Assembly: GCA_029262115.1 (NCBI GenBank)
Contig: JAJCZZ010000020.1
Span: 1-64,000, forward strand
From: Gemmatimonadota bacterium
Lineage (GTDB): Bacteria > Gemmatimonadota > Gemmatimonadetes > Longimicrobiales > Gaopeijiaceae
Length of the DNA stretch: 64,000 nucleotides
Direction of reading: 5' to 3'
Below the pieces are notes generated by a model. The model did no database searches and was not told the origin of the DNA. It saw only the letters and a program-made list of their open reading frames with translations. Of this stretch, positions 26,549-41,447 are shown one piece after another. Each line of letters begins with the position of its first letter. The first letter of the stretch is position 1. The position numbers and the translations under genes were made by a program.

Positions 26549-26666
26549 TACCCCGAGTGGAGGAGGCCGCGTGGGACCGGAGACCCGAAGCGTGCTGCGA
26601 TGGACCCTACCCCGAGTGGAGGAAACCGCGTGGGACCGGAGACCCGAAGCGTGCTGCATTGGACCC
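26549..26666. repeat. 59-bp tandem duplication at a gene start
   Basis: Two adjacent 59-bp copies (26549-26607 and 26608-26666) share TACCCCGAGTGGAGGA, GTGGGACCGGAGACCCGAAG and CGTGCTGC, and differ at a few positions. The left copy abuts the IS110 leader fragment and the right copy forms the first codons of the small membrane protein gene. The duplication places two alternative ATG contexts and GGAGG-like sites in tandem. Confidence 0.88.
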
Positions 26667-26857
26667 TGGGGAGCGGAGCGCTGTGGGGCGGTCTCTTCCT
26701 GGGCGTGGCGGCGTTCCGATCTACCACGGTGGGCGTCGCGCCCTGGGAGGTCGCCGCACCCCTTATGGCGCTCGGCCTCATCGGCGCCACCGTCGGCGGG
26801 CTGACCGGTCCTCTGGTTCGGTTGATCTGGCGCCGGTTCCGGAGCGCTCGGGCGTGA
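26600..26857 (+). CDS. small two-helix membrane protein
   Basis: The 85-residue protein has two hydrophobic stretches (about residues 25-42, GALWGGLFLGVAAF, and 52-72, APLMALGLIGATVGGLTGPL) and a basic C-terminal tail (RLIWRRFRSARA). It is therefore probably an inner-membrane hairpin. I have no family for it. The start is ambiguous because of the 59-bp duplication: the same N-terminal reading (PTPSGG, then RVGPETRSVL) also appears in the upstream repeat copy. Its TGA overlaps the GTG of the HemQ-like gene, so the two are coupled. Confidence 0.55.
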   Translation: MDPTPSGGNRVGPETRSVLHWTLGSGALWGGLFLGVAAFRSTTVGVAPWEVAAPLMALGLIGATVGGLTGPLVRLIWRRFRSARA

Positions 26858-27531
26858 TCGCCGACCCCTTTCTCGCCCACTTCGCCTGCTACGCCTTCGA
26901 GCCGGCTCTTTGGATCCTGCCCGACCGCGAACGGGTGGCCACCGGGGCGGCGCTGAAGGCTGCGCTCCGCGGGGCCGGCGAGGCCGTGCATCTGTACGGC
27001 ACGTATGCCACCCGCTCCGAGGCCGACCTCCTGGTGTGGACTTCCGTGCCCGTCACCTCGACGGACGCCGCTGCGGCCTTCTTCGGCAGGCTGGAGGCGG
27101 CGCTCCGCCCGTTTCGCGCATACCTCCGCCTCGTGGAGGTCCTCTGGGGATTCACCCGTGAGTCACAATACGCGAGGGGTGGCTCCGAGCGGCGCATGGA
27201 TCCCGCGGGCCCCCGGACCCTCCCCTACCTGGTGGTCTACCCCTTCTCCAAGACCCACCCGTGGTATCGCCTCGAGCCCGAGGAGCGCCAGCGGATGATG
27301 TCCGAGCACATCCGCATCGGCCACACCTACGAGGAGGTCCGCCAGCTCCTACTGTACTCCGCCGGCCTTCAGGACCACGAGTTCGTCGTGGTTTACGAGA
27401 CGCCGGACCTGGCTGCCTTCTCGGCGTTGGTGCGGGAGCTGCGGGCCACCCAAGTTCGCGCCTACACCGCGCTCGACGCGCCCGTGCGAGTGGGCGTTCA
27501 CCTGCCCGAGGGCGACGGCGCATGGCCGTGA
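26854..27531 (+). CDS. chlorite dismutase family heme protein (HemQ/ChdC-like)
   Basis: The 225-residue product belongs to the chlorite-dismutase family. The C-terminal ferredoxin-like half is recognisable: YLVVYPFSKTHPWYRLEPEE (a Tyr in the position used for coproheme decarboxylation), then MMSEHIRIGHTYEEV with the proximal-histidine region, then LYSAGLQDHEFVVVYETPD. The RELRATQVRAY segment near the end corresponds to the distal side. Family members either convert chlorite or decarboxylate coproheme to heme b. With a nearby heme operon containing hemY and hemH, the ChdC/HemQ role is the better guess. The GTG 26854 start overlaps the previous stop. Confidence 0.75.
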   Translation: MIADPFLAHFACYAFEPALWILPDRERVATGAALKAALRGAGEAVHLYGTYATRSEADLLVWTSVPVTSTDAAAAFFGRLEAALRPFRAYLRLVEVLWGFTRESQYARGGSERRMDPAGPRTLPYLVVYPFSKTHPWYRLEPEERQRMMSEHIRIGHTYEEVRQLLLYSAGLQDHEFVVVYETPDLAAFSALVRELRATQVRAYTALDAPVRVGVHLPEGDGAWP

Positions 27532-27851: not shown

Positions 27852-28169
27852 GTGACCGCGACCTGGCTCGTCCCCCTGGCCCTCTTCTGGCCCCTGACCG
27901 CGCTGTACCTGGGAGGCGCCCCGATCCGGATCGACGGTGGAGGTGGCGTGCGACAGCTCGCGGGGCTCCTCCTGCACTTCGCCCTTTTCCTGGGCGCGTG
28001 GCTGGGCGTCCGCACGGTGCTGTCCGCCGTGGCCAGCGGCGCGCTGCTGACCGTGGTCGTTCCGGCGCTGGTGGTCGTGATCCTCCTTCCACTTCTCGCG
28101 CGGGTCGCCTTCCGCGCGGTGGGCGTCCGGATCCGTCCCGACGAGGATGCGGCTGGCGCTGCCGGATAG
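27852..28169 (+). CDS. small membrane protein, first gene of the maturation cluster
   Basis: This 105-residue protein has about three hydrophobic segments: residues 5-20 (WLVPLALFWPLTALY), 34-52 (LAGLLLHFALFLGAWLGV) and 55-90 (VASGALLTVVVPALVVVILL, then PLLARVAF). It ends in a charged tail. I recognise no family. The GTG start is preceded by GAAGGAGGAA, one of the strongest ribosome binding sites in the region, so it is likely well translated. It precedes the ferredoxin gene by 108 bp on the same strand. Confidence 0.62.
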   Translation: MTATWLVPLALFWPLTALYLGGAPIRIDGGGGVRQLAGLLLHFALFLGAWLGVRTVLSAVASGALLTVVVPALVVVILLPLLARVAFRAVGVRIRPDEDAAGAAG

Positions 28170-28277: not shown

Positions 28278-28520
28278 GTGGACAGCGAAACGCGAACGAT
28301 AGCCGGGCTGACCATCCGCATCGACCGACTCGTGTGCGTGGGCTTCGAGGACTGCATCGACCCCGAATCTACCCTCTTCGTACTGGACAGCGATGGCATC
28401 GCAACGTTCCACGCCGACGCCGACTCGGCCGGCACCGAGCGAATCCTGGAGGCCTGCCGGGCCTGCCCCGTGGACGCCTTCGAGGTGTCCGACGCGTCGG
28501 GCAAGCGGGTGGTCCCGTGA
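28278..28520 (+). CDS. ferredoxin (single-cluster type)
   Basis: The 80-residue protein matches small single-cluster ferredoxins. Cysteines sit at about 20 and 26 (LVCVGFEDC) and 60 and 63 (EACRACPVDAF), with the usual proline after the last. The middle cysteine of a standard CxxCxxC is missing (residues GFE), as in [3Fe-4S]/[4Fe-4S] variants. The GTG 28278 start has AGGGAG upstream. Its stop overlaps the GTG of the Mrp-like ATPase gene, so this carrier and that ATPase are made together. It probably supplies electrons or a cluster to the maturation system. Confidence 0.8.
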   Translation: MDSETRTIAGLTIRIDRLVCVGFEDCIDPESTLFVLDSDGIATFHADADSAGTERILEACRACPVDAFEVSDASGKRVVP

Positions 28521-29443
28521 GCCGCGACGCCGGCGTGACGCCTCGCGCGATTCGGAGCTACGCGGACGTGGCGGCCCCGGACCGCTCAGACCTCGCCGGC
28601 CAAATCGGCGAGCAGCAACGTCTCCTGGCCCAGCGCTTGACGGGTGTGGGAGCCGTGGTGGCCGTCGTGAGCGGGAAGGGTGGGGTGGGCAAGAGCGCCG
28701 TCACGGCCAACCTGGCCGTCTCGCTGGCGGCGCGCGGCGCCGTCGTGGGCGCCGTGGACGCCGATCTCAACGGCCCGTGCCTGGGCCGGATGCTGGGCCT
28801 TCCGCGCACGCCCTTGGAGGACCGGGCGGATGGGGTGGGGCCTGCCATCGCCCCCTCCGGCGTCCGCGCCATCTCCACCGAATTGCTTCAAGAGGAGGCG
28901 GCCCCCGTCCGGTGGAAGGGGCCCGCCTCGGACCGCTTCGTGTGGCAGGGAGTGGCCGAGGCGTCGGTGCTCCGCGAATTCCTGGCCGACGTGGTCTGGG
29001 GGGAGTTGGACTACCTCCTGGTGGACGTGCCGCCGGGCACGGACAAGATCGGGCGCTTCCTGGATCTGGTGCCGCGACCCCACCAGGTGCTCCTGGTGAC
29101 CATCCCGTCGGCCGCGGCCGAGGCAGTGGTGGCGCGCTCCGCGACCTTCCTGGCCGAGGCCGGCGTGGAGGTAGTGGGCGTGGTACGCAACATGGTCGGC
29201 TACGCGCCGTCCGACGGCGGCCCGTCCATGCCTCTCTTCTCGAGCGAGACGGAGGCTCGCCCGGGGACCGCCACGGGGTTCGAAGTCTGGACGGACATTC
29301 CCTTCGCTCCCCGGCTCGGGCGGCTCACCGACGGCGGGCGTCCCCCGGGCGCTACCCTGGACGGGGCCGTGGGCGAGGCCTTCGGAGCCTTGGCGGATCG
29401 GGTGGAGCGCGGCCCTGGAGGCCGTGCTGAGGACGCCGCATGA
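28517..29443 (+). CDS. Mrp/ApbC-type P-loop ATPase (Fe-S carrier)
   Basis: The 308-residue product is an Mrp/NBP35-family ATPase. VVSGKGGVGKSAVTANLAVS is the deviant Walker A (about residues 50-69). VDADLNGPCLGRMLGL is switch I, and YLLVDVPPGTDKIG is the Walker B region with the family's VDxPPGT. The C-terminus (VVGVVRNMVGYAPSD) normally carries a CxxC for the Fe-S cluster; here that region has no CxxC pair, so cluster carriage is uncertain. It overlaps both its neighbours by four bases (GTGA, ATGA). A role in cofactor delivery for downstream redox proteins is inferred. Confidence 0.82.
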   Translation: MSRDAGVTPRAIRSYADVAAPDRSDLAGQIGEQQRLLAQRLTGVGAVVAVVSGKGGVGKSAVTANLAVSLAARGAVVGAVDADLNGPCLGRMLGLPRTPLEDRADGVGPAIAPSGVRAISTELLQEEAAPVRWKGPASDRFVWQGVAEASVLREFLADVVWGELDYLLVDVPPGTDKIGRFLDLVPRPHQVLLVTIPSAAAEAVVARSATFLAEAGVEVVGVVRNMVGYAPSDGGPSMPLFSSETEARPGTATGFEVWTDIPFAPRLGRLTDGGRPPGATLDGAVGEAFGALADRVERGPGGRAEDAA

Positions 29444-29943
29444 AGTTCCTCTGTCTCGACTGCGACGCAGCCATGGGCTTTGCCGAGCGACAGCTGCCGG
29501 GCGACGGCACCATGGCCGCCGTCTTCACCTGTCCGGGGTGCGGCCGCGAGGTGGCCATGTTGACCAACCCCATGGAGACCCGTTTTGTTGCCTCCATGGG
29601 CGTGGAGATCGGGGGACGCACGGTGCCGCTTCAGCCCTTCGAGCAGACCCGGACGGGCCTGGACCGGGCACGGGAGGACGCCTTCGAGGAGCCCGCCGCC
29701 GCGCCCGAGTCCGCGACAGGGTCCGCACCTCCCGCCGGCGCAGCGGCCCGGCCCGCTGCGCCCCGCCGTGGGGGCGTTTCTTGGTCCGACGACGCCAGGG
29801 CGCGTCTGGAGCGTGTGCCTCGCTTCGTCCGGGGAATGGTAAAGCGCATCTACACCGAGTACGCCCAGGAGCAGAACATCGGGACCATCACCGTGGAGGT
29901 GATGGACCGGGCCCGCTCCGATCTCGGCCTCGAAGGGATGTAG
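29440..29943 (+). CDS. zinc-ribbon / PCP_red domain protein
   Basis: The 167-residue protein starts with a zinc ribbon (MKFLCLDCDAAM, then FTCPGCGREVAML: two CxxC pairs). An alanine/proline linker leads to a C-terminal PCP_red domain (about 113-160: WSDDARARLERVPRFVRGMV, KRIYTEYAQEQ). PCP_red is the small domain named from the end of the BchB/ChlB subunit of protochlorophyllide reductase, where it helps hold a tetrapyrrole. No chlorophyll genes lie in the window. The gene overlaps the Mrp gene (ATGA). The same domain recurs in the two fusions downstream, so these proteins probably act on one substrate or complex. Confidence 0.75.
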   Translation: MKFLCLDCDAAMGFAERQLPGDGTMAAVFTCPGCGREVAMLTNPMETRFVASMGVEIGGRTVPLQPFEQTRTGLDRAREDAFEEPAAAPESATGSAPPAGAAARPAAPRRGGVSWSDDARARLERVPRFVRGMVKRIYTEYAQEQNIGTITVEVMDRARSDLGLEGM

Positions 29944-29946
29944 ATC

Positions 29947-30876
29947 GTGCTGTGGGCCACAGGTGTGGCGTATGGCTACGGGTCGGCGCCGGAAGCGCTC
30001 CAGGAGGCCGAGCTGGCGGCGGTCGGCGGCGAGGTGGTGGCTCTCCTCGGCGCAAATGGCGCCGGCAAGACTACGCTGCTCCGCCTGCTGGACGGCCAGT
30101 TCGAGCCCCGGCGCGGCCAACTCCGGCGACCGCCCTCCCGAACGCCGGAAGGGAGGCTCGCGTACGGCTTTGCAGGGGAGGACACGCCCCATCTCGACCT
30201 CCTGTCGGGGTGGGAGAACGCGCGCTTCTTCGCGCGGGCGGCGGGCCTCGACCGGGCCTCCGCCGAGGCGGCGGTGGGGGACCTCCTGGCGCGTCTAGCG
30301 CTGCTGGCCGAAGCCCACCGACCCGTGGCCGAGTACAGCTTCGGCGCCCGCCGGAAGCTCGCGCTGCTCGAGGCGCTGGCCCACCGTCCGTCCGTCCTCC
30401 TCCTGGACGAGCCCACGGTGGGCCTCGATTCCGCCGCCCGGGCCGCGCTTACCGCGCTCCTGCGCGAGCGCTCCCGCGAAGGGGCGGCCGTGGTGCTGGC
30501 CAGCCACGACACGGCCTTCCTCGAAGGGGTGGCGGACCGGGTGGTCTTCATGGCACGGGGGCGCACGCGGGGTGGGGGCCGGCCCCGGGAATTGGTGGCG
30601 GCCTTGGGCGGAGCCGCGCGCATCGAGATGACGCTGGCGGCGCCGATATCGTCCTCCCCGCCGCCGCGGGGCACGGGGTGGACGGTGGTCGATGGGGGTA
30701 GCCCCCTGGTGGTGCGCGCCGACGCGGGAGCGGCCGTCCTCCCCGACCTCTGCCGGGCTCTGGCGGCCGCCGGGGCTGAGGTGCGCCAGGTGGTGGTTCG
30801 GCCGCCGGACCTGAGCGAGGCGTTCCGCCGGAACGTCGGCGAAACGCTCCCCGGTGTCGCCGAGACGGCCTCGTGA
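29947..30876 (+). CDS. ABC transporter ATP-binding protein (CcmA-like)
   Basis: The 309-residue ATPase has Walker A LLGANGAGKTTLLRLL (about residues 35-50), an ABC signature YSFGARRKLALLEALA and Walker B VLLLDEPTVGL. The H-loop is in VLASHDTAF. A C-terminal extension of about 90 residues (residues 215-305) is not part of the usual nucleotide-binding domain. GTG 29947 is the start, three bases after the previous stop. It overlaps the permease gene by GTGA, so the two form an ABC-2-type transporter. Heme or cofactor export is possible given the context, but not shown. Confidence 0.82.
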   Translation: MLWATGVAYGYGSAPEALQEAELAAVGGEVVALLGANGAGKTTLLRLLDGQFEPRRGQLRRPPSRTPEGRLAYGFAGEDTPHLDLLSGWENARFFARAAGLDRASAEAAVGDLLARLALLAEAHRPVAEYSFGARRKLALLEALAHRPSVLLLDEPTVGLDSAARAALTALLRERSREGAAVVLASHDTAFLEGVADRVVFMARGRTRGGGRPRELVAALGGAARIEMTLAAPISSSPPPRGTGWTVVDGGSPLVVRADAGAAVLPDLCRALAAAGAEVRQVVVRPPDLSEAFRRNVGETLPGVAETAS

Positions 30877-31595
30877 GCCCTCTGGTCTGGGCGTTGGAGT
30901 GGCGGTTGGCCCGCAGGCGCAGGCGCTTGTTCCTCCTCAACGTGACCGTCCCACTTCTGCTGGTGCTCGCGGTGGCCCTCGCGTCGGCCCCGGTGGTGCA
31001 CGCGGCGGCGGTGTTCGTGGTCCTCTTCGTGATCCACCCGACCTTCGGCTCGGCCGTGCCCCTGGTGCGGGACGCAGAGACGGGAATGGTCGCCCGGATG
31101 CTACGGGGTGGCGTACCGCCCGGGGCCTACTTCCTGGAACGCGCGGCCGCCGCCGCCCTTCTGGATACCCTCCAGCTCCTGCCCGCCGTCGCGGTGGCCT
31201 GGTGGGGGCTCGGAGGACGCGGCTCGGCGCTCCTCCCTCTGCTGGCCGGCCTGGTCCTCGCGTTGTGGACCGCCAACCTGACGGGAATTCTCGTGGCGGC
31301 CGTGGCACGTTCCGTGGCCGAAACGGCCCTCTTTGCGGCGGTGGCCGCACTCCTGCTCCTCCACGCCTCGGGCGTCTTCCGCACCGGCCCGCCCGGGTCC
31401 GTGGCGGCTAGTTTTGAAGGGGCGGCGCCGTTCCGCCTTCTCCATGAAGCGCTGCTGGCCTCGGGGAGCGCGTTACCCACGGCGGGAGTGTGGGCCGCAC
31501 TCATCTGGGCGGCGGCGCTCCCGGGCGTCGTCCTCCTCCTGGCCCCGCGGATCGGCGTCGGCCTCGCCGGCGTGGCGCTTCGCCGCTCCATGTAG
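30873..31595 (+). CDS. ABC-type permease (CcmB-like)
   Basis: The 240-residue membrane protein has six predicted helices, starting LFLLNVTVPLLLVLAVALAS. The N-terminus PLVWALEWRLARRRRR and the RDAETGMVARML segment resemble CcmB and related ABC-2 permeases. CcmB works with CcmA in heme/cytochrome c maturation. Other ccm genes are not in the window, so this may be a specialised paralogue. It is coupled by GTGA to the ATPase. A gap with a promoter follows, so it may end the first transcript of the cluster. Confidence 0.68.
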   Translation: MSPLVWALEWRLARRRRRLFLLNVTVPLLLVLAVALASAPVVHAAAVFVVLFVIHPTFGSAVPLVRDAETGMVARMLRGGVPPGAYFLERAAAAALLDTLQLLPAVAVAWWGLGGRGSALLPLLAGLVLALWTANLTGILVAAVARSVAETALFAAVAALLLLHASGVFRTGPPGSVAASFEGAAPFRLLHEALLASGSALPTAGVWAALIWAAALPGVVLLLAPRIGVGLAGVALRRSM

Positions 31596-31682
31596 GAACG
31601 CCCCCCGAACACGGACTGTCCGGCGCTGCCAGGTATTCCGGAGTCGGCGAGAAGGGTGCGTCGGCGGGCCTCCCGCGCCGAT

Positions 31683-31712
31683 TTGACAACGTCCGTCGGC
31701 CTCGGATATACT
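31683..31712 (+). promoter_or_regulatory. sigma-70-type promoter
   Basis: A perfect -35 TTGACA (31683-31688) and a good -10 TATACT (31707-31712) are separated by 18 bp. They lie about 300 bp upstream of the universal-stress-protein gene, and the start site would fall near 31719. This would drive the downstream respiratory operon separately from the ABC genes. Confidence 0.75.
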
Positions 31713-31759
31713 CGCGTGGTCCACTGTTCGGGTTCCAGACGATCTGGAGGAATTCGACG

Positions 31760-31816
31760 GTGGACATCCTCGACACCGCACCGCCTCCTTGGAGGTCTGC
31801 GGCGCCCGGGGACTGA
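31760..31816 (+). CDS. possible 18-residue leader peptide
   Basis: Downstream of the promoter, CTGGAGGAATTC is followed by GTG 31760. This opens a short frame encoding MDILDTAPPPWRSAAPGD and ending TGA at 31814-31816. It has a triple proline that could slow ribosomes. With its strong ribosome binding site and nothing else in the gap, it could be a regulatory leader peptide or a chance reading. I see no clear alternative hairpins that prove attenuation. Confidence 0.3.
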   Translation: MDILDTAPPPWRSAAPGD

Positions 31817-32010
31817 CTGCGTCAATGACCCGCCGTGAGGGTTCGCCCTCCGGCTCTTACAGGACCGTGGGCGGGGCCATGAGCGCCCGGCTCACATGAT
31901 AAGACGCGACAGTTCCAGCATGTTGCCTGCTCGTTCCGTGGGGTCCGGCGTTGGGTCGGCACCCGGAGTCGCGCTCGGTGGCGTGCACGCACCCGAGCGC
32001 GGGCAAAGCG

Positions 32011-34101
32011 ATGTATCGAGAGATCCTGGTTCCGGTCGATAACTCCGATCCCTCCCTCTGGTCCGTTCACCGGGCCATAGAGATCGCCGAGCGCTCCGCG
32101 GGGCGCCTCACCGGGAACCACGTCTACGCCGCGCGTCTCCACGACATCCGTTTCCGTCAGCTCGAGACGGGCCTTCCGGCCCAATTCCAGACGGCGGACG
32201 AGCTCAAGCGCCAGCGGAAGATCCACGACAAGCTCATCGAGAAGGGCCTCCAGCTCATCTCGGACTCCTTCCTCGATCAGACCGAGAAGGCGTGCCGTGA
32301 GGCCGGCGTCGGCCTCACCCGGCAGCTTCTGGAGGGCATCAATTATGAGGAAATCATCCGGGAGGTGAACGAGGGCGAGGGCCGCCTGCCCAGCCTCATC
32401 GGCTTTGACCCCAACATCGCGGACAAGTACGACGGGGGAGAGCACGTGCGCGGCGATGTCCGCCTGGGAGAGGACGGCCGCATCGTGGCCGAGGACGAGT
32501 CTCAGGACGAGAGGGAGGCGGGCACCAGCGGCCGTGCGTACGACCTGCTGGTCATGGGGGCCCACGGCATTGGCCGCCAGGAGTACTCCCAACTCGGCGG
32601 CGTGGTTTCACGGGTCCTGCGCAGGGCCGAGAAGGACATGCTCGTGGTCCGCAACGACCGCCCCCTGGAGGGCGGCAAATGGATGGTGTGCGTGGACGGC
32701 TCGGCGTACAGCTACAACGCGCTTCGCCTGGCCCTGGAGATGGCGCGCGACTTCGACGCCAGCCTCTGGGTCTGTTCCGCTTTCGATGTGGAATACCACC
32801 ACGTCGTGTTCGGCAACATCAAGGATGTCCTGTCGGTGCAGGCCTCGAAGGTCTTTAAATTCGAAGAGCAGGAGGAACTCCACAACAACATCATCGACAA
32901 GGGTCTCCTCAAGCTGTGCAAGGCCAACCTGAAGCGGGCCCAGGTGATGGCTGAAGAGTTTCCCGAGGTTCCGGTCGAGACGCAGATCCTCATCGGCAAG
33001 CCCTTCGACTGTATCCTGCGCTGGGTGGACGAGGTGGCTCCCTCCCTCCTGGTGTTGGCCCGCCACGGGAGCCACCGGATCGAGGGTACCGAGCTGGGCT
33101 CCCAGGCCGAGAACCTTGTGCGCCTGGCCGATACCAGCGTCCTCCTGGTGGGCGCCCTGGACGTGCGCCCCGAGGAGATTCCCTGGATCGAGGAAGACGG
33201 CGAGACGGGGCTGGAATGGGCGCCACAGGCGGACGTGCGCATCCTTCGGGTGCCGCCCTTCGCCCTGGGGATCGCCCGCCGGGCGGTGGAGGAGTTCGTC
33301 CTGGACAACTACGGCTCTGGGGCCAATGGCACGTACGCCGGAGAGGCTCACAGCGAGGGCCTCGACGGTGATCACGCCGGGGGCGAGACTCCCGGCGCTC
33401 CCGTCCCGCCGCTGGGCACGAACGGCCTGCCCCTGGTCACCAACGAGCGCCTGGATCAGGCCATCAAGAAACTTCTTCCCACCCACATGCAACTCATCAT
33501 GGGCATCGGCACCGCCGAGGAGTTGGCGCTGGCCGAAGTGAAGGCGCAGGAAGCCATGAAGCGCACTCACGTGGAAGGGAACGAGGCCGACTCGCCGCCC
33601 GCGGTTCCCACCATTTCCACCACGTGCCCCTACACCGGCCACGTCCAGACGCGGGAGCGCACGGTGGCGGACCCGGTGGTGTGGACCGAGGAGGCCTTCC
33701 AGCGCCTGAGGAACGTCCCGCTCATCGCGCGGCCGCTAGCGCGCAACACGGTGGAGCGCTTTGCACGGGAGCACGACGTCTGGCGCGTTACGACCACGGT
33801 CATGGACGAGAACAAGGAGGCCATGATTGCGGCCGACGAGTTCGACGTGGATACCATGCTGGTCATGTTCCGTGAACTCCAGTCCAAGCAGCTCAAGGCC
33901 ACGGCCGAAGGCGTGGACGGGCTCACTCCCGAGATGCGCAGATTCATCGAAGAGGCCAAGGCCAACGGCGTGACCCGCTGCCCCGTGCGTGACGTGGCCG
34001 AGCAGGCCGAGGCGTGCCCGGTGGATCTCAAGACGGTGAGCCCCGAGGATGCGAAGGCCGCGGTACAGGCGTTCATGGAGCAGGGCGACGACCGAGAGTG
34101 A
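32011..34101 (+). CDS. tandem universal stress protein fused to two PCP_red-like domains
   Basis: The 696-residue protein begins with a UspA domain (MYREILVPVDNSDPSLWSV, ending around LLVMGAHGIGR and DMLVVRND) carrying a long insert. A second UspA domain follows (about 230-395: WMVCVDGSAYSYNALRLA, then LLVLARHGSHRIEGTELG). A PCP_red-like segment is near 401-425 (EWAPQADVRILRVPPFALGI), and a second at about 556-605 (VWTEEAFQRLRNVPLIARPL). A tail with two cysteines closes it. GTG- or ATG-type starts further upstream lack support; ATG 32011 opens the Usp fold. UspA proteins bind ATP and often tune respiration under stress. This architecture, linked to CydA-like genes, suggests a regulator or maturation scaffold. 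Confidence 0.75.
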   Translation: MYREILVPVDNSDPSLWSVHRAIEIAERSAGRLTGNHVYAARLHDIRFRQLETGLPAQFQTADELKRQRKIHDKLIEKGLQLISDSFLDQTEKACREAGVGLTRQLLEGINYEEIIREVNEGEGRLPSLIGFDPNIADKYDGGEHVRGDVRLGEDGRIVAEDESQDEREAGTSGRAYDLLVMGAHGIGRQEYSQLGGVVSRVLRRAEKDMLVVRNDRPLEGGKWMVCVDGSAYSYNALRLALEMARDFDASLWVCSAFDVEYHHVVFGNIKDVLSVQASKVFKFEEQEELHNNIIDKGLLKLCKANLKRAQVMAEEFPEVPVETQILIGKPFDCILRWVDEVAPSLLVLARHGSHRIEGTELGSQAENLVRLADTSVLLVGALDVRPEEIPWIEEDGETGLEWAPQADVRILRVPPFALGIARRAVEEFVLDNYGSGANGTYAGEAHSEGLDGDHAGGETPGAPVPPLGTNGLPLVTNERLDQAIKKLLPTHMQLIMGIGTAEELALAEVKAQEAMKRTHVEGNEADSPPAVPTISTTCPYTGHVQTRERTVADPVVWTEEAFQRLRNVPLIARPLARNTVERFAREHDVWRVTTTVMDENKEAMIAADEFDVDTMLVMFRELQSKQLKATAEGVDGLTPEMRRFIEEAKANGVTRCPVRDVAEQAEACPVDLKTVSPEDAKAAVQAFMEQGDDRE

Positions 34102-34214
34102 GCGGCCACGGGGAGGATCCGGTCGGAGCGGTGTGGGGAGGGGCAGGACCCCTCCCGATCCCGGACTTTCCCGTGTCGCCTTCGTCCTGGACCGTGGCCG
34201 ACGCGGAGATGTCG

Positions 34215-35528
34215 ATGTCCGCCCACACGGACGCACCGGTGCCCCATGTCGTCGCCTGGAACCTGACGCGCCGGTGCAACCTGGCGTGCTCGCACTGCTA
34301 CATCTCCGCTGGCGCCTGGCACGGCGGCGAGGGCGAGTTGGGCACGGAGGCGTGCCGGGCCATCCTGGACCAGGTCCTGGAGGTCAACCCGTCGCTTCTG
34401 CTGATTCTGAGCGGGGGCGAGCCCCTCGTGCGCGACGACCTGGAGGAGCTGGCGGCCCACGCCGCGGAGGCCGGCGCCACGGTGGTAGTGGGGACCAACG
34501 GCATCGGGCTCACCGACGCCCGCATCGAATCGTTGATGGAGGCCGGGGTGAGGGGGGTGGCCGTGAGCGTCGACTCCCTCCGCCCCGAATACCACGACCG
34601 CTTCCGCCACGGCGGCGGCGCCCTGGCCGACACGCTGGCCTCCGTGGACCGCCTCGTAGCGCACGAGCTGGACTTCGTGGTGCAGACCACGTTGACCCGG
34701 GGCAACCGCCATGAGGTGAACGGGCTCGCGGCGTGGGCCGCCGACCGGGGCGCCGTCTCGTTCAACCTGTACTTCCTCGTGCCCACGGGGCGGGGCGACC
34801 GGATGAAGGGGCTCCCGCCGGAGGAGAACGAGGAGGTCCTTGAGGAGTTGGTAGCGCTGGAAGAGCGGTATCGGGGCCGGATGATGGTGCGCTCCAAGTG
34901 CCAACCCCAGCTAATGCGGCACGTCTTCGAGGCGACGGGCGAGTCGCCCCTCCACAACTACCGGACGCGCTGCCCGTGTGGCGTGCACTACTGCCGCATC
35001 ACCCCCGAGGGGAAGCTCACGCCGTGCCCGTACCTTCCCGCCGTGGCCGGCGACCTCACCCGGGAGCCCTTCCGCCGGGTCTGGGAGAAGGCCGCCCTCT
35101 TCCAGGCCCTCCGCCACGGCGAGCTGGGAGGGCGGTGCGGCCGCTGCGAGTACCGGGAGGTGTGCGGCGGCTGCCGCGCCCGGGCTTACGCCCTCACCGG
35201 CGACCCCCTGGGCCCCGACGACTCGTGCGCCTACGACCCGCCTGGGGACCGCGCCCTGGTCCGCCCTCGGGGCGAGGTGGGGTACGGCGATGCCGCCGAG
35301 CCCGAGTTGGTCTGGACCGAGGGCGCCCGGAACCGGCTGAATCGGATTCCCAGCTTCGTTCGAGGGGTTGTCACGAAGCGGGTCGAGGCTTTCGCCCGCG
35401 AGCGAGGCTACCAAGCGGTGGATCTGGAGGTCATGGCGGAGGTGCGCCGGGCCCTTCCCGTGGACTTCTCCAAGCGCCTGCCCTTCTTCCTCGAGCGCGC
35501 CGACGCTGAGGAGGTGGACCGTGCGTAG
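34215..35528 (+). CDS. radical SAM/SPASM protein with C-terminal PCP_red domain
   Basis: The 437-residue protein has the radical SAM motif CNLACSHC (C21, C25, C28) after VVAWNLTRR, then LILSGGEPLVRDDLEEL. A SPASM region with about seven cysteines follows (CPCGVHYC, LTPCPYLPAV, CGRCEYREVCGGCRARAY), which binds auxiliary [4Fe-4S] clusters. The arrangement resembles AhbD/NirJ, which modify tetrapyrrole side chains, and PqqE-like peptide modifiers. A PCP_red domain occupies about 365-412 (VWTEGARNRLNRIPSFVRGV). ATG 34215 has GGAG six bases upstream; an alternative GTG at 34098 overlaps the preceding stop and would add 39 residues. The stop lies within the start of the CydA-like gene. Confidence 0.82.
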   Translation: MSAHTDAPVPHVVAWNLTRRCNLACSHCYISAGAWHGGEGELGTEACRAILDQVLEVNPSLLLILSGGEPLVRDDLEELAAHAAEAGATVVVGTNGIGLTDARIESLMEAGVRGVAVSVDSLRPEYHDRFRHGGGALADTLASVDRLVAHELDFVVQTTLTRGNRHEVNGLAAWAADRGAVSFNLYFLVPTGRGDRMKGLPPEENEEVLEELVALEERYRGRMMVRSKCQPQLMRHVFEATGESPLHNYRTRCPCGVHYCRITPEGKLTPCPYLPAVAGDLTREPFRRVWEKAALFQALRHGELGGRCGRCEYREVCGGCRARAYALTGDPLGPDDSCAYDPPGDRALVRPRGEVGYGDAAEPELVWTEGARNRLNRIPSFVRGVVTKRVEAFARERGYQAVDLEVMAEVRRALPVDFSKRLPFFLERADAEEVDRA

Positions 35529-37275
35529 CCTGATCGGAGCCCTGGCCGCACTGGTCCTCCTGGCCGAGCCCGCCCTGGCCCAGGAGGCCGCCCGCCGGTA
35601 CGGCGACTTCCCCGTCATCGGGAGCCGCGCCGCCGTCTGGGTGGCTGCCCAACTCCACCTCTTCTTCGCCGCCTTCGTCCTGGGCGTTCCCATGTTCGCC
35701 GTGGTGGCCGAGGTCATCGGCATCAAGTCGGGCGAGGAGCGTTTCGACAAACTGGCCAAGGAGTTCACGCGCCTCCTCCTGGTTTCGTACTCGGCCACGG
35801 CCGTCTGGGGGGCGGTCCTCGTCTTCGCCCTCGTCACCCTCTACCCCGGCGTCTGGACCTACCTGGCCGAGATCTTCGATGTCTCCATGTGGGTCTACGT
35901 GGGGATCTTCTTCTTTGAGTCGGCCACCCTCTACCTCTACTACTACGGGTGGGACCTCTGGAAGGAGGGGCGGGCCAAGTGGTTCCACTGGGGTCTGGGC
36001 ATCTTGCTCAACCTCTGGGGGACGACGGTGATGTTCATCGCCAACTCGTGGCTCACCTACATGATGAGCCCCCCTGCTGAGGTCACGCCGGACACGGCGC
36101 CGGGCATGGTGCAGTTCTGGAGCGCCTTCGCCAACGCCACCTGGATGCCCATCAACATCCACCGTCTCATTGCCAACGTGGTCTTCGGCGGAGCCATCGT
36201 GGGCGCCTACGCAGCGTACCGCTTCCTCATGGCCGAGACCGACGAGGAGCGGGCCCACTACGACTGGATGGGCTACATCGGGAACTTCGTGGCCATCAGC
36301 GCCCTCATCGTCCTCCCGTTCGCCGGCTACTGGTTGGGCCGGGAGATCTACGAGTTCAACCAGCAGATGGGGATCACCATGATGGGCGGCTTCATGAGTT
36401 GGCTCTGGATCGTCCAGGCCTTCCTCATCGGCGTTCTCTTCCTCACGGGCAACTACTACCTGTGGGTAGGGATGGGACGCATTCCCGGCGCCGAGCGCTT
36501 CCAACCGTACACCAAGTACATGCTGGTTGTCCTGGTCCTGGGCGTCATCGTCTGGGCCACCCCCCACTCCATGATCGCTTCCCGCGACGAGATCAGCGCC
36601 ATGGGCGGGCAGTTCCACCCCTTCCTGGGAGTGCTGGGCGTCATGAGCGCCAAGAACACGGCGGTGAACCTCATGATCCTGACCACGTTCCTCTCCTTCC
36701 TCCTCTACCGGAGGGCCAACAAGGAACCGGTGGTCGGGTGGGCCGGACGGGGGACCATGGTCCAGGGCGCCCTCTTTGGGATCGCCGCGCTGGTGGTCCT
36801 CTTCTACGGCGTGTACGGCTACTTCGTCCCGGCCATCGTCCGCATCGGCTTTTCGGTCTACCAGGTGCTGGCCGTCCTCTCCACCATCGTGGCGGTGGTG
36901 GTTCTGGACGTCCTCATGCTCCGCGGCGCCACCTCCCGCGGCGAGATCCGCTGGGGTCAGATGCCCCCCCGCTCCCAGTACGCCCTCTTCATCCTGGCCG
37001 TGACCTTCACCTGGCTCATGGGTCTCATGGGCTTCGCCCGGAGCGGGATCCGCCAGCACTGGCACGTCTTCGAGGTCATGCGAGACACCAGCGTCGACGC
37101 GGCCACACCGGCGCTGGGCTACGCCTCCGTCGTCATCTCGGTGTGCGTCCTCATCTTCCTGGGTATGGTGGCCTTCATCTTCTGGGTGGGCGGCCTGGCG
37201 GAGAAGCCGATCATCACCAAGGCGGCCCGCGGCGAAGGCCCCCACGCCGCCCTGCAGCCCGCCGGGGGCGACTGA
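35521..37275 (+). CDS. CydA-like cytochrome bd-type subunit I without CydB
   Basis: The 584-residue membrane protein matches cytochrome bd subunit I over its first half. WVAAQLHLFFAAFVLGVPMF has the His of heme b595, FFFESATLYLYYYGWD the conserved Glu, and MFIANSWLT the next helix. WMPINIHRLIANVVFGG supplies a heme b558 histidine. The classic GRQPW quinol-loop motif is not visible (GYWLGREIYEF instead), and several extra helices follow. No cydB is adjacent; c-type cytochromes are. An exported N-terminus (LLAEPALAQEA) is present. The start is GTG 35521, overlapping the radical SAM gene. I infer a quinol-oxidising unit that passes electrons to the cytochromes. Confidence 0.8.
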   Translation: MRSLIGALAALVLLAEPALAQEAARRYGDFPVIGSRAAVWVAAQLHLFFAAFVLGVPMFAVVAEVIGIKSGEERFDKLAKEFTRLLLVSYSATAVWGAVLVFALVTLYPGVWTYLAEIFDVSMWVYVGIFFFESATLYLYYYGWDLWKEGRAKWFHWGLGILLNLWGTTVMFIANSWLTYMMSPPAEVTPDTAPGMVQFWSAFANATWMPINIHRLIANVVFGGAIVGAYAAYRFLMAETDEERAHYDWMGYIGNFVAISALIVLPFAGYWLGREIYEFNQQMGITMMGGFMSWLWIVQAFLIGVLFLTGNYYLWVGMGRIPGAERFQPYTKYMLVVLVLGVIVWATPHSMIASRDEISAMGGQFHPFLGVLGVMSAKNTAVNLMILTTFLSFLLYRRANKEPVVGWAGRGTMVQGALFGIAALVVLFYGVYGYFVPAIVRIGFSVYQVLAVLSTIVAVVVLDVLMLRGATSRGEIRWGQMPPRSQYALFILAVTFTWLMGLMGFARSGIRQHWHVFEVMRDTSVDAATPALGYASVVISVCVLIFLGMVAFIFWVGGLAEKPIITKAARGEGPHAALQPAGGD

Positions 37276-37278
37276 GCC

Positions 37279-38097
37279 ATGCTGTTGCAGAATCTGAAGA
37301 TCGTCCTGGTGGTGTTGGGTACGCTGGGCCTCTACACCTGGGTGGCCAACGCCATTCCCCAGGTGGAGTCGGAGGTGCCCGCCCAGCTCTCCTTCGGCGC
37401 CGACGTGACCCCTGAGGAGCTCGTGAGCGCCGGCGGGCAGCTCTTTGCGGGGGCCGGAGCGTGCGTCACCTGCCACGGGCTCGAGGATCGGGCGCCGGCG
37501 CTCCTCTCCGACTACGGTGGGGCCGGGCCCATCGGCCAACGATGCGCCGACCGGGTCGAGGGGATGGACTGCAAGGAATACCTCTACGCCTCCCTCGCCG
37601 ACCCTTACTCCTACCTGGTGGAGCCCTTCGGGCCCATCATGCCCGACCAGCGCATCAACCTCTCCGAGGATCAGCTCTGGTCACTGGTGGCGTACCTCCA
37701 GGACCAGGGCGGGGAGGTGACCGTAACCGGCGCCGACCTCCAGAGCACTCAGGCGTCGTCCGCGGGCGGCGCCGCGAGCCAGGGCGGCGGCGGCGCCGCC
37801 ACCGCCGCGGCGTCGGGCCCCTCCAGCGACGCCACCGAGGCCACAGCCGTCATGCAGGCCAACCTCTGCTTCGGGTGCCACAAGCTGGGCGACCAGGGGG
37901 TGGTGCTGGGCCCGCCCTTCGACGGCATCGGATCCCGGCGGGACGCCGCCTACCTCCGAAACTCCATCCTGAACCCGAACGCCGAGGTGCCCGAGGGCTA
38001 CCAGGAGGTGGCGGGGCTCATGCCGCCCAACTTCGGACAGATGCTCACCGCCGGGCAGCTCGAGACCATCGTCCAGTTCCTGGCGAGCCAGAGGTAG
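37279..38097 (+). CDS. diheme c-type cytochrome, membrane-anchored
   Basis: The 272-residue protein has one N-terminal helix (LKIVLVVLGTLGLYTWVANA) as anchor and two CxxCH heme sites: CVTCH at residues 62-66 and CFGCH at 197-201. An alanine/glycine/serine-rich linker of about 40 residues separates the two cytochrome c folds. Candidate axial methionines occur in PIMPDQRI (first domain) and GLMPPNFGQML (second). It starts three bases after the CydA-like stop, so it is very likely a subunit of the same complex and the first acceptor for its electrons. Confidence 0.85.
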   Translation: MLLQNLKIVLVVLGTLGLYTWVANAIPQVESEVPAQLSFGADVTPEELVSAGGQLFAGAGACVTCHGLEDRAPALLSDYGGAGPIGQRCADRVEGMDCKEYLYASLADPYSYLVEPFGPIMPDQRINLSEDQLWSLVAYLQDQGGEVTVTGADLQSTQASSAGGAASQGGGGAATAAASGPSSDATEATAVMQANLCFGCHKLGDQGVVLGPPFDGIGSRRDAAYLRNSILNPNAEVPEGYQEVAGLMPPNFGQMLTAGQLETIVQFLASQR

Positions 38098-38105
38098 GAG
38101 GGACG

Positions 38106-38903
38106 ATGCGCTTTCTCGACACTCCGTTCCGGCAGGCGTTGGCCGTCCTCGTCGTCGCCTACGTCCTCATCGACTTCGGCATCCCCTACATCCCGCCGCT
38201 CTTCGGGGTAGACAGCGCCCCCGTCCCCAACACGGTGGTCCTCCAGTACCTCCTCACTGTGCTGGCCGGCCTCCTCCTCTGGGTGAGCGACAACGACGAG
38301 CGCTGGACGGAGTTCAAGCGGCCCATCCAGGAAGTCCTGGTGCGGCCCGACAAGAGGGTGGGTCGGGCGGTGCTCCTGGTGGCCGTGCCGGTCCTGGTGG
38401 CCTTCGTGACGTGGGGGCGGGTGAAGCCCGAGGTCACGGCGCCCCCCTCCTTCCGCTCCATCCATCCGGCGCCCCCCAGGTCCATCACATTCCAGGGCGA
38501 GACAATGCAGCTCGCCGGGCTGGAGAACCCGCTCCGGAGCGAGGGCTCCCTGGAGGCCCACAACGAGGTTGGGAAGCGGGTCTACTACCAGAACTGCCTC
38601 CCCTGCCACGGCGACGCCCTGGACGGCCTGGGTCACTACGCCCACGGTTTCAACCCGGCGCCGCTCAACTTCCAGGACGTGGGGACCATCGCCCAGCTCA
38701 CCGAGAGCTTCGTCTTCTGGCGCGTCGCCAAGGGCGGACCCGGGCTCCCCCGGGAGGGGACCCCCTGGAACTCGGCCATGCCCGCATGGGAGAACCTCCT
38801 CACCGCTGACGAGATCTGGTCGGTCATCCTCTTCCTCTACGAGCAGACGGGGAACGATCCCCGCACCTGGGAGGAAGCAGGGGCCGAGGAAGGGGAGCAC
38901 TGA
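38106..38903 (+). CDS. monoheme c-type cytochrome with three membrane helices
   Basis: This 265-residue protein begins with hydrophobic helices at about residues 9-30 (ALAVLVVAYVLIDFGIPYI), 45-62 (VVLQYLLTVLAGLLLWV) and 88-105 (AVLLVAVPVLVAFVTWG). A periplasmic cytochrome c domain follows, with CLPCH at residues 164-168 and a likely Met ligand in NSAMPAWENLLT. The helical part resembles the membrane subunits seen in complexes where cytochromes dock on quinol oxidoreductases. The stop overlaps the next start by one base (TGATG). Confidence 0.82.
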   Translation: MRFLDTPFRQALAVLVVAYVLIDFGIPYIPPLFGVDSAPVPNTVVLQYLLTVLAGLLLWVSDNDERWTEFKRPIQEVLVRPDKRVGRAVLLVAVPVLVAFVTWGRVKPEVTAPPSFRSIHPAPPRSITFQGETMQLAGLENPLRSEGSLEAHNEVGKRVYYQNCLPCHGDALDGLGHYAHGFNPAPLNFQDVGTIAQLTESFVFWRVAKGGPGLPREGTPWNSAMPAWENLLTADEIWSVILFLYEQTGNDPRTWEEAGAEEGEH

Positions 38904-40519
38904 TGGACGCCCGCACCGCCGGCCCCGGAGCCGGCACCCGCCGCGCCGCCGCCCTCGCCGCCGGGCTCCTGTGCGCCGCCGCCCTCGCCCTCGTGGCCCT
39001 CGCGCCGACGCCCGCTGGGGCCCAGGTGGAGGGCGCGGCCGTCTACGACCGCTGGTGCGCCGGGTGCCACGGGGTGGACGGAGACGGGCAGGGCCCGGCC
39101 GCGGGGAGGATGCTCCCCCGGCCCCGGGACTTCACCGTGGGCCTCTACCAGATCCGCTCCACGGGCACCGGGGAGCTCCCCACCGACGAGGACATCCTCC
39201 GCGTTATCGACGAGGGGATGCCGGGCACGGCCATGCCCGGGTGGTCCGAGGTCCTGACCCGAGCCGAGCGCAACGCCCTGGTGGAGTACCTCAAGACCTT
39301 TTCACGCTTCTTCGCCTCCTCGCCCGAGCCCGAGCCGCTGGACTTCCCCAGGGCCCCCGGCTCCTCCGAGGAGAAGCTGGTGCGTGGCCGGGAGGTCTTC
39401 GAGCTAATCGAGTGCAACCGCTGCCACGGCCCCGCCGGCCGCGGCGACGGGACCTCGTCGCCTACCCTGGAGAACGACGAAGGCCACCCCACCGTGGCCG
39501 CCGATCTCACCGAGGGGTGGATGTTCAACGGCGGGGGCACGGTGGAGGACATCTACCGGCGCCTCCGCACTGGGCTGGACGGCACCCCCATGCCCTCCTT
39601 CTCGGACCTGGTGGACGCCGAGGTCATCAGCTCCGAGGATCTCTGGAGCCTGGCCCACTACGTGCGAAGCCTCTCCCCCGGGGAGCGCCCCCCGGTGCGC
39701 GAGGTGGTCACCGCCCGGTTCGCCGAGGAGGGCCCGGTGCCCACCACCCCCGACGACGACGCCTGGGACGAGGTGGAGCGGTACTGGGTACCCATGGTGG
39801 GGCAGATCCTCCTCCCGCCCCGGTGGTTCAACCCCCGGGTGGACGGCCTCTGGGTCCAGGCGCTCCACGACGGCCAGGAGCTGGCCGTCCTGGTGACCTG
39901 GAGCGACCCCTCCCGGAGCCCTGATCCGGCGTGGGACGAGTGGGCGACCAAGGTGATGGAGGTCATGGACCACCCCGACGCGGGGTCCACGGCGGGCGCG
40001 GGGCCGGGGGACCGGCTCACCGTGCAATTCCCGGCCACGGCCACCGAGGGGATGGAGCGTCCGTTCTTCCTCCAGGGTGACGCCCGCCGTCCCGCCTACC
40101 TGTGGACGTGGCGGAGCTGGCAGGCCGGACCCGTGGAGGCGGAGGCCCGGGGGCTGGGCGCGGAGCAGCCCCAGCCCGCCGACGGCCAGGACGTGACCAC
40201 GGCGGCGGTGTGGGAGGCGGGCCAGTGGCGCGTTCTCTTCAGCCGCTCCCTCACCACGGAGGGGGAGGATGACCCGCCTTTCGCCGTGGGGACCGCCATC
40301 CCGATGGCCTTCCAGGCCTGGGACGGCGACAACGGAGAGCAGGGGGCCCAAGGCTCGGTAAGCACTTGGTACTTCCTCTCCCTGCAGCAGCCCACCCCCA
40401 TGGCGGCCTACGTGGCCCCGGTGGTAGCGTTGGCGCTGGCGTTCGGCCTGCTGCTCCTGATGGTGCGGCGCGCCCAGAGGCGGGAGGAGGGGGCCCAGGC
40501 TCCCGCGTCCCGTGTGTGA
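38903..40519 (+). CDS. diheme cytochrome c with EB_dh-like heme domain
   Basis: The 538-residue product has a signal peptide (ALAAGLLCAAALALVALAPT) and two cytochrome c domains: CAGCH at 52-56 and CNRCH at 171-175. A large beta-rich domain follows (about 290-500: WVPMVGQILLPPRWFNPRVD, then ELAVLVTWSDPS and ending ISTWYFLSLQQPT-like). It resembles the ethylbenzene-dehydrogenase gamma/NxrC heme b domain. One C-terminal helix (AYVAPVVALALAFGLLLLMV) anchors it. Such a chain could carry electrons from the CydA-like core to a soluble or membrane oxidase. The exact axial ligands of the beta domain are not identified. Confidence 0.78.
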   Translation: MDARTAGPGAGTRRAAALAAGLLCAAALALVALAPTPAGAQVEGAAVYDRWCAGCHGVDGDGQGPAAGRMLPRPRDFTVGLYQIRSTGTGELPTDEDILRVIDEGMPGTAMPGWSEVLTRAERNALVEYLKTFSRFFASSPEPEPLDFPRAPGSSEEKLVRGREVFELIECNRCHGPAGRGDGTSSPTLENDEGHPTVAADLTEGWMFNGGGTVEDIYRRLRTGLDGTPMPSFSDLVDAEVISSEDLWSLAHYVRSLSPGERPPVREVVTARFAEEGPVPTTPDDDAWDEVERYWVPMVGQILLPPRWFNPRVDGLWVQALHDGQELAVLVTWSDPSRSPDPAWDEWATKVMEVMDHPDAGSTAGAGPGDRLTVQFPATATEGMERPFFLQGDARRPAYLWTWRSWQAGPVEAEARGLGAEQPQPADGQDVTTAAVWEAGQWRVLFSRSLTTEGEDDPPFAVGTAIPMAFQAWDGDNGEQGAQGSVSTWYFLSLQQPTPMAAYVAPVVALALAFGLLLLMVRRAQRREEGAQAPASRV

Positions 40520-40580: not shown

Positions 40581-41447
40581 ATGTTCGCCAAGCCCACGAC
40601 AGGACTCGCCCTGCTGCTCGCAACATTCCTGGCCGCCGGGTGCGGCGGTGGCGGAGACGCCGGAGGAGGCCCGGGCGCCGCGGCGGGCGACGACGAGCCC
40701 ATGACCTCGTCGGTGGACGCTTCCACCGCAGGGAACGTCTCCGGGACGGTGAGCTTCACCGGCACCCCGCCGGCCCCCGAGCCCATCGACATGACCGAGG
40801 AGCAGGTGTGCGCCGAACAGTACAGCAGTCGGCCCACGACCCAGACCGTGGTGGTGGGGGACGGAGGCGGCCTGGCCAACGTCTTCGTCCACGTCCGTGA
40901 GGGGCTTTCGGGGCACACATTCCCCACGCCCTCCGCGGCCGTCCTCGACCAGGAGGGGTGCCGCTACCACCCCCACGTCCTGGGTCTCCAGACCGGGCAG
41001 ACCATGACCATCAGGAACTCGGACGGGGTCCTCCACAACATCAACGCCTCCCCCTCGGAGAACCGGCCCTTCAACGTGAGCCAGCCGGTGGAGATGGACA
41101 CGGAGCGCTCCTTCCCGGTGGAGGAGGTCATGATCCCCCTTCGCTGCGACGTGCACGGGTGGATGGCCGCCTACGTGGGCGTTCTTCCTCACCCCTACCA
41201 CTCGGTGACCGCCACCGACGGGTCCTTTTCCCTTGAGACGCTCCCGCCAGGCGACTACGTGGTGGAAGCGTGGCACGAGCGCTACGGGGTCCAGACGCAA
41301 AACGTGACCGTGACCACCGGCGGGACCGCCGAGATCACCTTCGAGTTCAACGAGGCGATGGCGGGGAACCCGGTGCCGCTGGCTGAGCCGTGGGTCTTGA
41401 CGCACCAGGGCGAACCCGGGCACGCCGTCGGAGCGGACCGTCCGTAG
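40581..41447 (+). CDS. lipoprotein with cupredoxin-like and carboxypeptidase-regulatory-like domains
   Basis: The 288-residue protein has a lipoprotein signal (LALLLATFLAAGCGGG). The middle fits a cupredoxin: MTIRNSDGVLHNINASPS gives a histidine ligand and MIPLRCDVHGWMAAYV a Cys-x2-His-x2-Met set, so a type 1 copper site is plausible. The end is a carboxypeptidase-regulatory-like sandwich (TDGSFSLETLPPGDYVVEAW). ATG 40581 is preceded by AGGAGG. Placed between the c-type cytochromes and the oxidase subunits, it may carry electrons to cytochrome c oxidase or help deliver copper. Confidence 0.75.
   Translation: MFAKPTTGLALLLATFLAAGCGGGGDAGGGPGAAAGDDEPMTSSVDASTAGNVSGTVSFTGTPPAPEPIDMTEEQVCAEQYSSRPTTQTVVVGDGGGLANVFVHVREGLSGHTFPTPSAAVLDQEGCRYHPHVLGLQTGQTMTIRNSDGVLHNINASPSENRPFNVSQPVEMDTERSFPVEEVMIPLRCDVHGWMAAYVGVLPHPYHSVTATDGSFSLETLPPGDYVVEAWHERYGVQTQNVTVTTGGTAEITFEFNEAMAGNPVPLAEPWVLTHQGEPGHAVGADRP

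Follow-up and report, generated by a model that had tools for sequence, protein, structure and literature searches.

Three proteins with PCP_red domains (PF08369), an Mrp-type ATPase and a radical S-adenosylmethionine (SAM) enzyme are encoded among seven genes at positions 28278-35528 of a contig from a Gemmatimonadota metagenome-assembled genome (JAJCZZ010000020.1, assembly GCA_029262115.1), of which the first 64,000 nucleotides, here called the window, were analysed. The association of this set with a divergent CydA-like and c-type cytochrome complex encoded immediately downstream is strongly supported. The client-specific module is real, conserved and apparently undescribed, and its parts belong to known families; no description of it was found in the open literature searched, most subscription papers being outside reach. 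That the PCP_red proteins, the Mrp protein and the radical SAM enzyme work together in the cytosol as a maturation module devoted to the neighbouring complex is, in our judgement, an evenly balanced proposition, and such a module would probably make or deliver a modified heme. A bolder version, which we hold only tentatively and rate as somewhat doubtful, is that a previously unknown modified heme, produced from coproheme or heme by the PCP_red-tailed radical SAM enzyme, may serve as the special cofactor of a widespread CydA-like respiratory complex that Gemmatimonadota and Acidobacteriota share with Planctomycetota, probable anaerobic ammonium-oxidizing (anammox) bacteria among them.

A conserved gene set beside a CydA-like complex

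The genes of the cluster and those that follow them in the window are listed here with coordinates, strand and supporting Pfam matches.

28278-28520, forward: single-cluster 4Fe-4S ferredoxin (PF13459 and PF13370 exceed their cut-offs)
28517-29443, forward: Mrp/NBP35-type P-loop ATPase (PF10609, 181 bits)
29440-29943, forward: zinc-ribbon protein with two CXXC pairs and PCP_red at residues 115-159 (PF08369, 56.6 bits)
29947-30876, forward: ABC transporter ATPase, accessory (PF00005)
30873-31595, forward: ABC-2 type permease, accessory (PF01061)
32011-34101, forward: tandem universal stress protein (Usp) domains, degenerate PCP_red-like segment at residues 402-433 and PCP_red at 558-602 (PF00582, PF08369)
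34209-35528, forward: radical SAM/SPASM enzyme of the AhbD/NirJ2 group with C-terminal PCP_red at residues 369-413 (PF04055, PF13186, PF08369)
35521-37275, forward: divergent CydA-like membrane subunit of 584 amino acids (PF01654, 78 bits)
37279-38097, forward: di-heme c-type cytochrome (PF00034/PF13442, two CXXCH motifs)
38112-38903, forward: mono-heme c-type cytochrome with an N-terminal membrane region (PF13442, one CXXCH motif)
38903-40519, forward: di-heme c-type cytochrome fused to an ethylbenzene-dehydrogenase-gamma-like (EB_dh) domain (PF13442, PF09459, two CXXCH motifs)
40581-41447, forward: cupredoxin-like lipoprotein, a conserved partner (identified by eye; conserved order)
41514-42188, 42235-44034 and 44031-44693, forward: CoxB, CoxA and CoxC (assigned by visual inspection of the translations; order conserved)

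All seven genes of the cluster lie on the forward strand and mostly overlap or stand a few bases apart, the exception being a 415-base gap upstream of the Usp gene, and the start of the CydA-like gene (35521) overlaps the stop codon of the radical SAM gene (35528). Coordinates and Pfam matches therefore confirm the arrangement given in a preliminary description of the window, in which co-oriented genes directly precede a CydA-like protein and c-type cytochromes.

Among 150 sampled Gemmatimonadota genomes, divergent CydA proteins score 50-87 bits with PF01654, while complete canonical ones mostly reach 355-538. The PCP_red set is present in all 42 of these genomes with a divergent CydA, and only three carry PCP_red of the non-phototroph type without one (one with a contig ending in the cluster, two with single weak hits). 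A divergent CydA is likewise found in 17 of the 18 acidobacterial genomes with non-phototroph PCP_red and in 13 of the 16 planctomycetal genomes with PCP_red, two of them via split hits, and four genomes of a further phylum combine PCP_red with a divergent CydA. The corresponding Fisher p-values, all of which ignore shared ancestry, are ~5e-34 for Gemmatimonadota, ~1e-23 for Acidobacteriota and ~7e-18 for Planctomycetota. The set lacks a matching CydA hit in G275, G270 and G016, where every such contig ends inside the cluster, the G275 contig starting with the two cytochromes that follow cydA elsewhere; the PCP_red hits of G093, G140 and G336 are single, weak or short, and G651 and G692 lack a CydA hit. 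The co-occurrence on which the preliminary description had staked its proposal thus holds, and in most genomes the gene group is not found apart from the CydA-like and cytochrome genes.

Gene order points the same way. In 36 loci of the Gemmatimonadota type, the succession of ferredoxin, Mrp, zinc-ribbon protein, optional ABC pair, Usp protein, radical SAM enzyme, CydA-like protein and c-type cytochromes is kept, with small variations, wherever the contig suffices, and after the third cytochrome it runs on through the cupredoxin-like protein to CoxB, CoxA and CoxC, the ferredoxin gene having moved in a few loci. Between phyla, the core that is retained consists of the CydA-like protein, three c-type cytochromes, the Usp, radical SAM and zinc-ribbon proteins with their PCP_red domains, and Mrp, and the order is rearranged. 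Acidobacteriota have CydA, the cytochromes and the Usp protein, then other genes, then Mrp, the zinc-ribbon protein and the radical SAM enzyme; in G190, the radical SAM gene occupies one strand and the zinc-ribbon, Mrp, Usp, cytochrome and CydA genes the opposite one, with cupredoxin and Cox genes further on. A rearranged order with the set intact is a stronger argument for linkage than the p-values, and chance is excluded as the explanation of the conserved cluster. Where other weak CydA relatives occur, at six loci, the partner genes are all missing from the surroundings.

The ABC transporter and ferredoxin, which had been counted in the cluster, are indeed present in the window but lie outside the conserved core and are largely Gemmatimonadota additions; the ABC pair is absent from several Gemmatimonadota groups, including L004-type loci. 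A GNAT-family protein adjoins Mrp in other phyla. The Cox genes, considered as a possible client, are frequent but not universal neighbours and are not supported as a constant partner: several acidobacterial and planctomycetal loci have PCP_red and CydA genes and no cox gene within the examined stretch, and at L037 the radical SAM gene adjoins cox genes, with CydA on a different contig.

The CydA-like protein belongs to the cytochrome bd CydA family by both profile and fold, since it passes PF01654 (78 bits against a cut-off of 26.2) and its structural model (mean predicted local distance difference test score, pLDDT, 78.5; predicted template modelling score, pTM, 0.80) matches solved cytochrome bd CydA chains with Z 20-23 over ~345 residues, the next match being the membrane subunit of Alternative Complex III (Z 16). 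Aligned with seven canonical CydA proteins, it retains H46, E133 and H214 as equivalents of H19, E107 and H186, and has Tyr126 at the position of E99 and Leu502 at that of E445; the residue roles are those of Escherichia coli cytochrome bd, and the positions come from the alignments. New conserved segments stand in place of the quinol loop, and RQHW is found where canonical proteins have GRQPW. The protein thus lacks both the quinol loop and the heme b595 ligand E445 of a cytochrome bd quinol oxidase. Its invariant Tyr, Trp, His and Asn residues are numerous, and one acidobacterial member (L132) has Lys at the H19 position. Its constant partners are the di-heme cytochrome c, the mono-heme cytochrome c and the di-heme EB_dh cytochrome. 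In L090 (genome G234), two CydA-like complexes stand head to head, each with three cytochromes and a cupredoxin-like gene.

Murali, Gennis and Hemp reportedly described the OR-N and OR-C branches of the cytochrome bd oxygen reductase superfamily in 2021. By its sequence features and its partners, the complex fits the non-quinol branches of this superfamily outlined in PMC10839748. Frames of ~810-830 amino acids that match HZS_alpha, a hydrazine synthase family, occur in seven Planctomycetota genomes that have both the complex and the PCP_red set (G594, G628, G576, G612, G659, G674 and G701; loci L138 and L151), and these organisms are probably anammox bacteria; the family also matches G651 36 times, and only frames of that length were counted. 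The complex may be something other than an ordinary terminal oxidase in these probable anammox bacteria.

PCP_red domains beyond chlorophyll biosynthesis

The preliminary description had counted four PCP_red domains in three proteins. The profile search it had called for finds PF08369 in all three, above the gathering score of 32.5 bits once per protein (56.6 bits in the zinc-ribbon protein, 53.5 and 52.3 bits in the other two), so that a literal count of four by Pfam was rejected. The fourth, at residues 402-433 of the Usp protein, has degenerated yet is conserved. With a model built from nothing but the other two PCP_red protein families, it is detected at 14 bits (i-E 1e-4), and the same copy scores 15-22 bits in Gemmatimonadota Usp orthologues. 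In other phyla the Usp protein mostly has two or three copies, and in many relatives the Pfam model itself recognizes two.

Genomes have been pre-screened for phototrophy with PF08369 as the marker (PMC12815261). Among the sampled genomes, 44 of the 55 PF08369-positive Gemmatimonadota have no BchB-type hit, and most PF08369-positive genomes of Gemmatimonadota, Acidobacteriota and Planctomycetota likewise have none. A scan of the whole genome to which the window belongs returned only the three PCP_red matches, none of them on BchB or BchZ; BchB and BchZ are therefore absent, which bears out the earlier remark that chlorophyll genes are missing and leads us to reject the domain as a chlorophyll remnant. 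Pfam finds no nitrogenase-like domain in the three proteins, and the set does not qualify as a dark-operative protochlorophyllide reductase (BchLNB), which requires nitrogenase-like N and B subunits.

Elsewhere in the sampled genomes, PCP_red also occurs on BchB and BchZ; in three phototrophic Gemmatimonadota loci (L066, L067 and L069), the BchZ C-terminus is a weak PCP_red that is above the cut-off, and both nitrogenase-like chlorophyll reductases therefore carry the domain. It is found N-terminally on proteins of the chlorite-dismutase/coproheme-decarboxylase (ChdC) family in two genomes that have no CydA-like complex (L096:8652-9668 and L097:1810-2964), together with a siroheme-type sulfite/nitrite reductase (NIR_SIR) domain and 4Fe-4S motifs in two Planctomycetota (L139:8996-9922 and L155:8919-9803), and, below the cut-off, on a flavin reductase. 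ORFs of similar size to the NIR_SIR fusions, with PCP_red, are seen in other Planctomycetota that have the module.

The radical SAM enzyme and its possible chemistry

The radical SAM enzyme has the CX3CX2C motif and SPASM cysteines of its superfamily (PF04055 and PF13186), the alignment showing invariant C23, C27 and C30, followed by C255, C273, C310, C313, C319, C322 and C340. Its top-scoring families are AhbD (TIGR04545) and NirJ2 (TIGR04055), each with 268 bits, and one or the other scores best in every phylum tested (268-342 bits). The scores fall below the equivalog cut-off of 500 that applies to both families (for AhbD, 268 bits in the window protein and 299-342 in three relatives; for NirJ2, 268-340), and the enzyme is therefore not filed under either. 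AhbD converts the propionate groups of coproheme to vinyl groups, and NirJ exchanges propionates for carbonyls (PMC7242693). A resemblance to tetrapyrrole modifiers, proposed earlier, is thus upheld as a closest relationship that stays far below the cut-offs. PCP_red is absent from 18 genomes that carry AhbD/NirJ-like relatives without the tail, and the tail therefore belongs to the module and not to heme radical SAM enzymes generally. The structural model is well defined (pLDDT 87, pTM 0.87, with 92-96 in the PCP_red part).

Genes of heme biosynthesis form a nearly complete pathway at 48.1-56.9 kb of the window, on the strand opposite to the cluster, and a ChdC-family gene lies upstream of the cluster:

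26557-27531, forward: ChdC (HemQ)/chlorite-dismutase family protein, domain at residues 133-315 (ORF taken from the first start codon; PF06778, 140 bits)
48087-49181, reverse: HemE (Pfam, as for the genes below)
50483-51241, reverse: HemD
51238-52191, reverse: HemC
52176-53147, reverse: HemB
53144-55084, reverse: HemY/CgoX-like protein
54454-55590, reverse: ferrochelatase
55587-56870, reverse: HemA

The ChdC-family protein passes PF06778 and scores 87 bits against the 235 of the HemQ_actino equivalog; it is a probable coproheme decarboxylase. Heme-biosynthesis genes lie upstream in 15 of the 23 Gemmatimonadota loci with enough flank, their identity varying by lineage (HemA with HemB, HemE with HemY, HemC or a ChdC-family gene), and HemY-type genes stand beside the cluster in other phyla. 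No ahbABC or nir operon was found among the window genes examined. An HmuY-like gene of a heme-binding family (45228-45818) is located between the Cox genes and SCO1/CtaG, and in other Gemmatimonadota the homologous gene is found upstream of the cluster; a small hydrophobic protein encoded between the ChdC-family gene and the ferredoxin (27852-28169) shows 53-55% identity across several Gemmatimonadota clusters.

The affinity of the radical SAM enzyme to AhbD and NirJ2, the PCP_red fusions and the recurrent heme-gene neighbours are the reasons for favouring a tetrapyrrole. PCP_red would be a small helical module of tetrapyrrole-handling proteins that allows the radical SAM enzyme, the zinc-ribbon protein and the chaperone-like Usp protein to share or pass on one substrate or partner. 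The radical SAM enzyme would most likely edit a side chain of an iron porphyrin, coproheme or heme, drawn from the neighbouring heme pathway, and Mrp and ferredoxin could supply Fe-S clusters or electrons. The Usp domains, whose nucleotide motifs are largely intact and of the ATP-binding type in a motif scan, may bind ATP, so that the protein could act as a carrier or switch driven by ATP. The product of the radical SAM enzyme would be loaded into the CydA-like/cytochrome complex. The zinc-ribbon cysteines C5, C8, C31 and C34 are invariant in the alignment. The CXXC that bridges a cluster in Mrp/ApbC Fe-S carriers is replaced in the window Mrp and its nearest relatives and retained in most others, and a classical cluster-carrier role is therefore doubtful in that clade. 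The preliminary description had proposed maturation of a tetrapyrrole or Fe-S cofactor; the dedicated module stands, and fusions and heme neighbours favour the tetrapyrrole side, while the chemistry is inferred, including heme as substrate, the bond changed, the product and the recipient subunit.

Several points weigh against this proposal. The CydA-like subunit could contain plain heme b, and co-occurrence would fit the CydA-like protein, the cytochromes or the EB_dh heme as client. The Fisher p-values take no account of shared ancestry, and a few genomes have lone PCP_red proteins or ChdC fusions but not the complex. The solved fold closest to the radical SAM model is that of PqqE, a peptide modifier, followed by the peptide maturases SkfB and SuiB, and many SPASM enzymes have peptide substrates.

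The closeness to PqqE keeps alive a rival that we consider unlikely, namely that the enzyme modifies a polypeptide of the CydA-like subunit or a cytochrome, for instance by a cross-link or an amino-acid-derived cofactor, with PCP_red as a docking domain. The SPASM domain typical of peptide modifiers, the client specificity of the module and the invariant Tyr, Trp, His and Asn residues of the CydA-like protein would suit it, whereas the enzyme's sequence is nearer to AhbD and NirJ2 than to any peptide maturase family and PCP_red elsewhere sits on tetrapyrrole enzymes. Oxygen-independent supply of heme b, in which the enzyme would carry out the AhbD reaction on coproheme, replacing or supplementing ChdC, and the link to CydA would reflect only low-oxygen life, is distinctly improbable. 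AhbD is one of the two top-scoring families, the window holds a heme pathway and a ChdC-family gene, and seven of the module-bearing Planctomycetota are probably anaerobic anammox bacteria; yet every tested enzyme is far under the AhbD cut-off, a general heme supplier is not expected to track one CydA subfamily, this reading leaves the Usp and zinc-ribbon proteins unexplained, and the genome already has ferrochelatase and the ChdC-family gene. We give similarly little credence to a module for building or repairing a cofactor other than heme, such as an Fe-S cluster, or for regulating the complex under stress through Usp, with PCP_red as a generic protein-protein module: the Mrp, ferredoxin and zinc-ribbon proteins and the largely intact Usp motifs speak for it, but the client complex has no conserved Fe-S protein, the window-clade Mrp lacks CXXC, and heme-gene neighbours and PCP_red fusions favour tetrapyrroles.

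Significance and comparison with known systems

Most of the enzymes that make tetrapyrroles are considered known (PMC7242693). The non-quinol branches of the cytochrome bd superfamily have many members, but almost no biochemistry has been done on them (PMC10839748). A client-specific maturation module, if true, would give a direct handle on the content and role of these complexes in bacteria of environmental importance, such as the probable anammox bacteria, and interest is raised by the fact that the cofactor is directly testable. PCP_red would cease to be a chlorophyll marker and become a domain for handling tetrapyrroles in general.

With AhbD (heme b synthase) and NirJ/NirJ2 (heme d1 biosynthesis), the window enzyme shares the radical SAM and SPASM cysteines, the best family scores and the heme-gene neighbours; it differs in scoring 268-342 bits (window protein and relatives) against a cut-off of 500, in its C-terminal PCP_red and in being tied to a respiratory complex. 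BchLNB and BchXYZ likewise have a C-terminal PCP_red with a P-loop ATPase and ferredoxin nearby, but the window has no nitrogenase-like subunits, its ATPase is of the Mrp and not the BchL type, and the genome has no BchB. The OR-N and OR-C branches, as summarised in PMC10839748, share PF01654, the equivalents of H19, E107 and H186, the missing quinol loop and the c-type cytochrome partners, whereas the window complex has lost the equivalents of E99 and E445 and has two c-type cytochromes and an EB_dh cytochrome as constant partners. SPASM maturases of the PqqE/QhpD type resemble the system in that the maturation gene adjoins its client, and PqqE also in its fold; in contrast to such maturases, no peptide precursor gene is seen at the locus, and the radical SAM sequence is nearer to the heme enzymes.

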